Assembly: GCA_026388415.1 (NCBI GenBank)
Contig: JAPLJV010000043.1
Location: forward strand, 72,478 to 105,164
Source of the DNA: Deltaproteobacteria bacterium
GTDB lineage: Bacteria; Desulfobacterota; Syntrophia; Syntrophales; JACQWR01
Reading direction: 5' to 3'
Length of the DNA stretch: 32,687 nt
This document shows positions 26,716 to 30,524 of the stretch, piece after piece. The notes below the pieces were generated by a model. It ran no database searches. It had not been told where the DNA came from and saw only the letters and a program-made list of their open reading frames with translations. Each line of letters starts with the position of its first letter. Positions within the stretch are counted from its first letter, which is position 1. A program made the position numbers and the translations under genes.

Positions 26716-26772
26716 CGGACAATTCAAGTCCGGTGTGGTGCGCAAAAAAAACGAAGGTTAACAAAAGTTGAA
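26716..26772 (-). repeat. selC-like repeat, copy 1 (most diverged)
   Basis: The plus strand reads CGGACAATTCAAGTCCGGTG, then TGGTGCGCAAAAAAAACG and AAGGTTAACAAAAGTTG. The first part forms a 4-5 bp stem with a 7-base loop (GGAC-AATTCAA-GTCC), like an anticodon arm. It resembles copies at 27110-27180 and 28080-28154 and lies 12 bases beyond the stop of the small minus-strand gene at 26785-26949. Confidence 0.6.
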
Positions 26773-26784
26773 TCCGTAGGAGCC

Positions 26785-26949
26785 CTACTTCTTTTTCCCT
26801 GCCGCCGTTGGAAAGTCTTTTAGCGTATCAATCGAAACCTGCAGTTGCGGGCCTTGTCCCTGAGCAACTACATTCTCTTGTCTCTCGATAAAGATCATCG
26901 TGCAAATCATAATCAACAAGAAAGCCGCGATTAAATAAAGCCATTTCAT
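26785..26949 (-). CDS. Small membrane-anchored protein, 54 residues
   Basis: A complete short gene on the minus strand: ATG at 26949, TAG at 26785, 54 codons. It is preceded by a clear ribosome site (AAAGGAGCTTGGGGG). The protein starts MKWLYLIAAFLLIMICTMIF, one transmembrane helix or uncleaved signal anchor, and continues IERQENVVAQGQGPQLQVSI and ends in a lysine-rich tail (AAGKKK). I do not recognise the family. It sits alone between two copies of the selC-like repeat, downstream of the unknown gene at 27206-27850. Good start signals, a sensible hydrophobic leader and lack of competing frames support it as real. Confidence 0.6.
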   Translation of the reverse strand: MKWLYLIAAFLLIMICTMIFIERQENVVAQGQGPQLQVSIDTLKDFPTAAGKKK

Positions 26950-27109
26950 CCCCCAAGCTCCTTTCCCCTTGTCAGCTCAACTTTATAGCGATATTTTTAT
27001 ATTAAACCGAGTATTAGTGAGCTCATACGGAGTTAAGGTTTCAAAGTCAAGCAAAATGTACCATTTTTAAGGAGTAATATTTAGGTGGAGGGTGGTACAA
27101 TTTCAATAG

Positions 27110-27180
27110 CATGAATAATTGATACGGATAATTCAAGTCCGGTTATGGGCGCTAAAACCGAAGCTTAACAAAAGTTAATG
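27110..27180 (-). repeat. selC-like repeat, copy 2
   Basis: The plus strand reads CATGAATAATTGATACGG, then ATAATTCAAGTCCGG, then TTATGGGCGCTAAAACCG, then AAGCTTAACAAAAGTTAATG. The 14 bases GGGCGCTAAAACCG are identical to the variable-arm region of the tRNA-Sec gene (28237-28250 read on the minus strand), and TTCAA-TCCGGT matches its anticodon arm. It begins 26 bases beyond the stop of the gene at 27206-27850. Confidence 0.75.
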
Positions 27181-27205
27181 GTTAAAAAAACCGCACAAAA
27201 TCTTA

Positions 27206-27850
27206 TCAAAAGAGTTTGTTTAGGAAATTGGTGATCAGGCCGCCATTCTTTTTACTTGCCCCTCGGCTGGGAATGTTGGGTTGAATAATGGTTCTGCTGA
27301 AAACGATCCGCCACTCTCCTCCCTCTTTGATCATCTCCAGGTTTAAGGTTTCGCGGCCATAGAGCAAGAAGGGGCTTGAAAGCGTAGCTACAGCTTGACT
27401 ATTATCGTATTTGTTAAATATGACCTCATGGATGATGAAATTTTGGAACTTTATCTGCTTTTCCTTATGATCGTCGGCGAAATCTTTCAAGGTATATGTT
27501 TTTTTAGACGTCTCGGAGAGTTGTTCATAAGCCCCCTGATATTCACCTGCCGTGACATTTTGCATAAAAACATTTATCCGCTTGACGATGGTGGATGTAT
27601 CGCGGTTGGGCGCAGTAATAAAAAATAGAACGACAAGCATTATGGTGGCCAACAAGAAATATACCGCTGCGGCATAACGTTTATTACCTCTAAATACGTT
27701 CTCGAAAATCCATGCTCGTTCTATGAAAATTATAGTGACGATTAAGATGACGATGAGAGCGTAAGCAAGGATACTGCCCTTCAGAAGGGAGGTAAGGCCC
27801 ATTCCGATCAAAGTGTTTATAAGAGCAATGTAAAGATTTTCTTTTTTCAA
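27206..27850 (-). CDS. Unknown membrane protein with NTF2-like C-terminal domain
   Basis: A 214-residue protein with hydrophobic helices at about 7-23, 26-44 and 58-78 and basic residues between (RGNKRYA). The soluble part from about residue 85 reads DTSTIVKRINVFMQNVTAGE then YQGAYEQLSETSKKTYT and ends in strands EWRIVFSRTII. That layout (helices carrying a YxxAYxxLS motif followed by a curved sheet) is that of DUF4878/DUF3887-type lumazine-binding-like or NTF2-like domains, usually outside the membrane. The C-terminal tail is polar and basic. It is flanked on both sides by selC-like repeats, forming one unit of the array. Function unknown; the domain call is by pattern only. Confidence 0.65.
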   Translation of the reverse strand: MKKENLYIALINTLIGMGLTSLLKGSILAYALIVILIVTIIFIERAWIFENVFRGNKRYAAAVYFLLATIMLVVLFFITAPNRDTSTIVKRINVFMQNVTAGEYQGAYEQLSETSKKTYTLKDFADDHKEKQIKFQNFIIHEVIFNKYDNSQAVATLSSPFLLYGRETLNLEMIKEGGEWRIVFSRTIIQPNIPSRGASKKNGGLITNFLNKLF

Positions 27851-28079
27851 CTTGTCAGCCTTTCATGCAGCCCCGAGGTAAAACAGAAATATCTTCCAGA
27901 GTAATGCATCAGCAGTCAGAAAGCCCTATATTTTAAGAACTTGCCATAATTTTTGATAAGGTATTATTTTTTAATATATGTATAAGCAGACCAGATTTGT
28001 ATGTCAATGACATAGTGGCTATAAAACGTTAATTGGGGTACCTGTTGCACAATGAGGTTGATATGCGCCTGCTTCAAAG
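27851..28079. other. AT-rich intergenic stretch
   Basis: DNA between the unknown membrane protein and the third selC-like repeat. No gene, promoter pair or hairpin with T-tract stands out. Confidence 0.35.
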
Positions 28080-28154
28080 CATGAATAATATTGATACGGA
28101 CAAATTCAAGTCCGGTTATGGGCGCTAAAAACCGAAGGTTAACAAAAGCTAATG
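28080..28154 (-). repeat. selC-like repeat, copy 3, next to selC
   Basis: The plus strand reads CATGAATAATATTGATACGG then ACAAATTCAAGTCCGG, TTATGGGCGCTAAAAACCG and AAGGTTAACAAAAGC. It is nearly the same as copy 2 over about 70 bases. It lies about 48 bases beyond the 3' end of the tRNA-Sec gene and is inverted with respect to the part of selC it resembles. Confidence 0.75.
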
Positions 28155-28201
28155 ACAGGTTAAAATATTTATTCGCTAAAATGCGAAATTCATTAATAAA
28201 T

Positions 28202-28299
28202 TGGCGGAAGTGCATGGGAATCGAACCCACCCAGGACGGTTTTAGCGCCCTACACCGGATTTGAAGTCCGAGAGGCCCACCAGTGACCTTGGCACTTCC
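28202..28299 (-). tRNA. selC: tRNA-Sec (anticodon TCA)
   Basis: Read on the minus strand it has an 8-bp acceptor stem GGAAGTGC / GCACTTCC, a G discriminator and an encoded CCA. The anticodon arm is CGGA-CTTCAAA-TCCG with anticodon TCA, the variable arm is long (AGGGCG...CGTCCT) and the T arm is GTGGG-TTCGATT-CCCAT. The extended acceptor, long variable arm and UCA anticodon identify selenocysteine tRNA, which inserts Sec at UGA with SelB and a SECIS element. Total length is 98 bases including CCA. It lies 29 bases after moeA on the same strand. selA, selB and selD are not in the window. Confidence 0.95.
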
Positions 28300-30314: not shown

Positions 30315-30324
30315 AAAGAGTTTC

Positions 30325-30513
30325 ACCTGAAAATGGAGATCAAATCCCCCTTGCTCCCCCTTTTCTAAAGGGGGAATTTACGGTTCCCCTCTTTGGCAAA
30401 GAGGGGGTAGGGAAGATTTTCTTTGTCCTTTGTGATGGCATGCTGTCATCAGCGATTGACCTGAAAATGGAGATCAAATCCCCCTTACTCCCCCTTTGCT
30501 AAAGGGGGAATTT
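30325..30513. repeat. Pair of direct repeats with palindromes
   Basis: Two copies of a unit of about 55 bases, 30325-30380 and 30459-30513, both reading ACCTGAAAATGGAGATCAAA then TCCCCCTT-CTCCCCCTTT and a palindromic AAAGGGGGAATTT. They differ at only a few positions. Between them is another palindrome, CCCCTCTTTG / CAAAGAGGGG (30386-30406). CCCCCTTT...AAAGGGGG elements of this kind are dispersed repeats in many genomes of this type. Copy 1 reaches the start of the DUF374 gene and supplies its ribosome site. Confidence 0.7.
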
Positions 30514-30524
30514 GTGGTTTCCTG

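Follow-up and report, generated by a model that had tools for sequence, protein, structure and literature searches.

Repeats downstream of selC in a Syntrophales bacterium are probably P'-arm ends of tyrosine-integrase elements at class II tRNA genes

An attP of the lambda type is made up of P, core, H', and P'1-3. Genomic islands of the Islander type, which lie at tRNA and tmRNA genes, use a tyrosine integrase and have the tRNA gene regenerated at one end and, at the opposite end, a displaced 3' fragment pointing the same way (PMC4383910). CIMEs keep their att ends after the integration genes are lost, and by tandem accretion they stack at one tRNA gene (PMC5704250). In Dehalococcoides, serial T-loop insertions lie downstream of one RNA gene, ssrA, and about half of these islands have no integration module (PMC3146451). 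A search of a literature library found no paper on the element family analyzed here or on inverted selC blocks.

The window (the whole stretch of DNA that was analyzed, 32,687 nucleotides) contains the attachment gene selC (tRNA-Sec, TCA) on the minus strand at 28202..28299 (ARAGORN; Rfam RF01852, 72.8 bits), and an Rfam search of the region found nothing besides tRNA-Sec. Near selC, the preliminary description had placed three copies of a repeat, each preceded on the minus strand by one gene and each containing an inverted segment of tRNA-Sec, and all of this was confirmed. The copies are present at 26716-26772 (copy 1), 27110-27180 (copy 2), and 28080-28154 (copy 3), just 3' of a 54-aa ORF (26785..26949, minus strand), a 214-aa ORF (27206..27850, minus strand), and selC, respectively. 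They have ∼28 bp in common with selC, from the anticodon loop to the variable arm and inverted relative to it; in copy 2 this match covers 29 bp (86% identity), exceeds chance (E 5e-5 within the window), and includes a stretch identical to selC (GGGCGCTAAAACCG). Identity between copies 2 and 3 is 91% over ∼75 bp, and the two also have the sequence left of the selC-like block in common. An integrase profile search found no tyrosine recombinase in the window, in agreement with the preliminary description.

That description had also proposed a genome-wide search for the repeat. When copy 2 was used as the query in a DNA search of the whole genome, copy 3 (E 5e-21) and copy 1 (E 3e-8) were recovered along with a fourth, weaker place on another contig, C23 (E 9e-5), and nothing else matched. 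In the fourth copy, the selC-like block overlaps the 3' end of a small HTH_17 gene, and a primase gene adjoins it. Around position 100 kb of contig C23 (locus L008), AEP-TOTE/D5 primase and HTH_17 genes lie beside a putative ComM/YifB remnant, as read from the ORF, and an island may have been inserted there. Elsewhere in the window, upstream of a 220-aa ORF on the minus strand, lie two direct repeats of 72 bp (30317-30522; 89% identity), and both contain a short CCCCCTTT..AAAGGGGG palindrome.

To describe the repeat across genomes, one model (R1) was built from an alignment of 14 units and a second (R2) from 31 longer units (alignment A3). At copy 3 the conserved unit extends past the repeat as first delimited and reaches the 3' end of selC (∼28103-28201), adding three TTAAC-type repeats and an AT-rich dyad to the earlier account, whose positions otherwise stand. 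The selC-like block of copy 3 (28105..28134, plus strand, inverted relative to selC) is followed by three arm-type-like repeats at 28135..28164 (GGTTAAC, GCTAATG, and GGTTAAA on the plus strand, ∼11 bp apart), recognized from the sequence, alignment A3, and model R2 (70.4 bits). Between these and selC is an AT-rich spacer (28165..28201) with a dyad, TTCGCTAAAATGCGAA (28172-28187), that is conserved in the 31-sequence alignment A3, and we infer that this spacer is an H'-like bend between the tRNA end and the arm repeats. Copy 3 is a whole P' arm, and copies 1 and 2 consist of the block and some of the arm repeats. In copy 2 the block (27132..27160, plus strand) is followed by arm-type-like repeats (27163..27187; sequence and model R2), with no tRNA fragment or dyad left alongside; in copy 1 the block (26723..26753, plus strand) is the most diverged of the three, and two arm-type-like repeats are recognizable (26756..26774; sequence and model R2). 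A survey of 64 sites found no tRNA 3' fragment beside window copy 1 or 2. We therefore read each window copy as a portion of a P' arm, as in attachment sites for tyrosine integrases, and the P' side alone is recognizable in the window.

Other genomes of the order have the same arrangement. Moving away from the tRNA, the P' arm consists of the tRNA 3' end, an AT-rich dyad of ∼40 bp, one to three TTTAACC repeats ∼11 bp apart, the inverted selC-like block, and then cargo; read in the other direction downstream of selC in several relatives, the inverted block is followed by AGGTTAAA repeats ∼11 bp apart and the AT-rich dyad. At the far end of the element, two TTTAAC repeats (the P arm) are located ∼70 bp before several of the displaced tRNA 3' fragments. 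Among the 155 genomes of the order, 39 contain the P' arm according to model R2, at ∼70 places and in 16 of 53 genera; a search of the class is the same as this search, as the class has one order. When 395 genomes sampled from the phylum were searched, four were positive for the P' arm, all within the order, and none of the sampled genomes from outside the order contained it. Named records with the arm motif are from Smithella, Syntrophaceae MAGs, and other MAGs labeled Deltaproteobacteria, and pattern scans of viral contigs gave no match. Two MAG contigs labeled Bacteroidetes or Bacteroidota (L174 and L176) have a Syntrophales-type selC with the element and are likely misbinned.

Of the 64 sites examined, 51 abut a tRNA 3' end. 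The abutting gene is intact at 31 of them, window copy 3 included (21 Sec, 9 Ser, and 1 Leu; the last two groups are seven Ser-GCT and one each of Ser-GGA, Ser-CGA, and Leu-GAG), and a displaced 3' fragment abuts another 20 (17 Sec and 3 Ser). At the other 13, the tRNA fragment is absent or decayed. All of the targeted tRNAs belong to class II, with a long variable arm. The displaced fragments in relatives start at TTCGATTCCC or TTCAAATCCC, which would place the crossover in the T-loop (TTCGATT in selC) and not in the selC-like block. The preliminary description had suggested successive insertions at selC, with att-like sites bounding one-gene cassettes. This idea is supported by the P' arm behind Sec, Ser, and Leu tRNAs in 39 genomes and by the P arm opposite it, and it needs amending in that the crossover is not in the block and tRNA-Ser and tRNA-Leu genes are also used. 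The units that genome G074 has at Sec and at Ser fragments show 94% identity, and G064 and G063 share one cargo gene (80% DNA identity, ∼1.1 kb), which in the former lies at tRNA-Ser and in the latter beside a Sec-type fragment; we count both cases as support for a possible movement of elements between tRNAs.

The selC flanks of relatives contain other insertions as well. Direct selC 3' fragments of 65-67 bp that start at the anticodon loop (L055, 7501-7567; L059, 6184-6248) represent classical anticodon-type insertions, and selC in G144 (L142, 310-407) differs in its variable arm from the genes of G139 and G142, which would fit replacement of its 3' half by an element. Other element families at these flanks (L117, L118, L135, and others) each have their own arm repeats, for example GTGCCGAT with Zn-ribbon integrases and a CCCCC type.

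Complete elements without an integrase were found in G072 (5.07 kb), G064 (4.30 kb), G065 (1.79 kb, with an HU gene inside), and G063 (3.17 kb); all four have kept the P arm, the P' arm, and the duplicated tRNA end. Larger elements at L176 and in G078 have the same arm next to selC, with genes for an integrase (PF00589), HU, and a primase-helicase near it (the HU gene of G078 is putative, being read from an overlapping frame). Close homologs of this integrase are present in unit-bearing loci of G065 (78%), G073 (73%), and G117 (69%) and as a pseudogene in G004, a tally that excludes one G073 fragment (contig C119); a moderate homolog in G154 (57%) is in an element with other arms. The match to an N-terminal arm-binding domain is weak (PF12167, E 0.007, below the cut-off), and the putative tie between the integrase and the TTTAACC arm is one of neighborhood only. 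The Zn-ribbon integrases beside selC in G072 and G154 were rejected as the cognate enzyme because they go with other arms (GTGCCGAT-like). XerC/D sequences dominated an initial integrase profile, which was uninformative.

Most elements of the family have one or a few cargo genes and no integrase of their own. In relatives this cargo includes genes for AbiEi/AbiEii, Schlafen AlbA_2, CsgG, TPR, PEP-CTERM, and caspase-WD40 proteins; its direction is modestly biased to one orientation (38:19), often that of the tRNA. In the window, the 54-aa product has an N-terminal hydrophobic segment and no family match, and its ORF is putative cargo. The 214-aa membrane protein, to which it is unrelated, has no Pfam family above the cut-off and a sub-threshold match to NTF2-like MecA_N. 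Across the order, just three further genomes have homologs of the 214-aa gene (65-69% identity); these lie at sites other than selC and have no repeats alongside, and the DNA homology stops at the ORF ends. On these sequence comparisons the 214-aa gene is cargo, and the presence of separate homologs in distant relatives indicates that it was acquired. The preliminary description had held that conservation of the genes without the repeats would speak against a link between them; such conservation was found in part, in the three relatives and for the 214-aa gene, and it fits cargo capture while ruling out an obligatory gene-repeat pair. It had also asked whether relatives that lack the two genes have a clean region downstream of selC; in some the unit is still present (as in G001), and in others it is absent.

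Based on the above findings, we consider it probable (roughly 0.84) that the repeats are P'-arm ends of tyrosine-integrase elements at the 3' ends of class II tRNA genes (Sec, Ser, and Leu) and that the window contains eroded, tandemly accreted, integrase-less elements, as indicated by three ends with single cargo genes between them, the lack of an integrase, and the missing tRNA fragments beside copies 1 and 2. In such a system, an integrase would bind the P and P' arms and, once bound, recombine the T-loops of the element and the tRNA gene, so that the tRNA would be regenerated at the P' side. The window elements may once have moved by means of an integrase supplied in trans, as in a cis-mobilizable-type element.

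A similar array could have arisen through ordinary local duplication instead of serial integration, if recombination, homologous or illegitimate, had copied one attachment remnant beside selC along with a gene. The 91% identity of copies 2 and 3, which continues left of the block, is consistent with this explanation, and because copies 1 and 2 have neither the tRNA 3' fragment nor the dyad of a clean junction, one of them could have been made in this way. However, the cargo genes show no relation to each other, the 214-aa gene was acquired, and relatives have serial arrays with intact tRNA fragments, so we regard duplication as an unlikely origin for the array.

The inverted selC-like block, present in about three-quarters of the sites, ranks with the best-conserved portions of the unit and has no established place in attachment-site anatomy. 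The preliminary description had offered a family of tRNA-derived 3' elements as an alternative, and a tRNA-derived RNA element was rejected since no conserved RNA structure of the unit was predicted from the 31-sequence alignment A3. A candidate promoter within the block, considered on sequence grounds, lacks conserved spacing. Transcripts of the copies could also act as antisense or regulatory RNAs, base-pairing with tRNA-Sec at its anticodon and variable arm, as a sponge or to control processing. In keeping with this, the copies on the selC strand are complementary to ∼28 nt of tRNA-Sec, and cargo is frequently co-oriented with the tRNA. Against it, the host's own selC fits the block better in just 1 of 14 comparisons (the consensus of the order was better in 7, and 6 were ties), units behind Ser and Leu tRNAs carry the same selC-like block, about one-quarter of arms are without the block, and no RNA structure is conserved, all of which makes an antisense role very improbable. 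The block is carried along by the element and probably represents either a DNA site bound by a protein or the relic of a former attachment site. We give almost no credence to an integron-like cassette array with the repeats as attC sites (single-strand hairpins recombined in trans by IntI, as in a CALIN), which would account for the gene-repeat-gene-repeat layout, the 55-75 bp sites, the absence of an adjoining integrase, and the modest cargo bias, since inspection of boxes and folds did not find attC sites with R''/R' boxes and a foldable strand in the window copies (an attC-like GTTRRRY box is in copy 2 only, and single-strand folds are weak, z -0.2 to -2.1) and since sites directly behind tRNA 3' ends, duplicated fragments, and P/P' repeats are the anatomy of tRNA integrases.

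Placing the locus as a set of tyrosine-integrase elements allows comparison with the known systems. Elements in relatives resemble Islander-type islands in having the tRNA regenerated at one end and a displaced 3' fragment at the other, but most have no integrase, some are smaller than 2 kb, and their P' arm usually includes the inverted selC-like block; given the missing integrase and small size, the Islander integrase and length filters would drop them. They are like CIMEs in their tandem stacking and in the two att ends without integration genes seen in G072, G064, G065, and G063, and unlike them in that no conjugative helper was identified here, several class II tRNA types are used across one order, and cargo is often one or a few genes. 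The Dehalococcoides islands use the serine recombinase DsiB at ssrA (PMC3146451), whereas PF00589, HU, and primase genes are found here at Sec, Ser, and Leu tRNA genes. As in a lambda-type attP, three phased P' repeats lie beyond an AT-rich bend site with a P arm opposite; the inverted selC-like block beyond the P' repeats is additional.

A broader proposal, which we put forward tentatively and hold to be doubtful, is a helper-dependent cassette system that spans the order: integrase-less elements would stack up behind class II tRNA genes, and the inverted mimic of selC would be a working part of the P' arm (for example, an extra site for the integrase or a regulator) that links mobility to selC. 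The block raises the question of whether part of the targeted tRNA gene can serve an attachment site as a decoy. Island finders that require an integrase or a minimum length miss integrase-less elements this small, and the P' arm model provides a handle for mapping their cargo. With selC and further class II tRNA genes as their sites, these elements seem to shuffle single genes (for secreted proteins, lipoproteins, AbiE toxin-antitoxin, and Schlafen-type proteins) between syntrophic bacteria.
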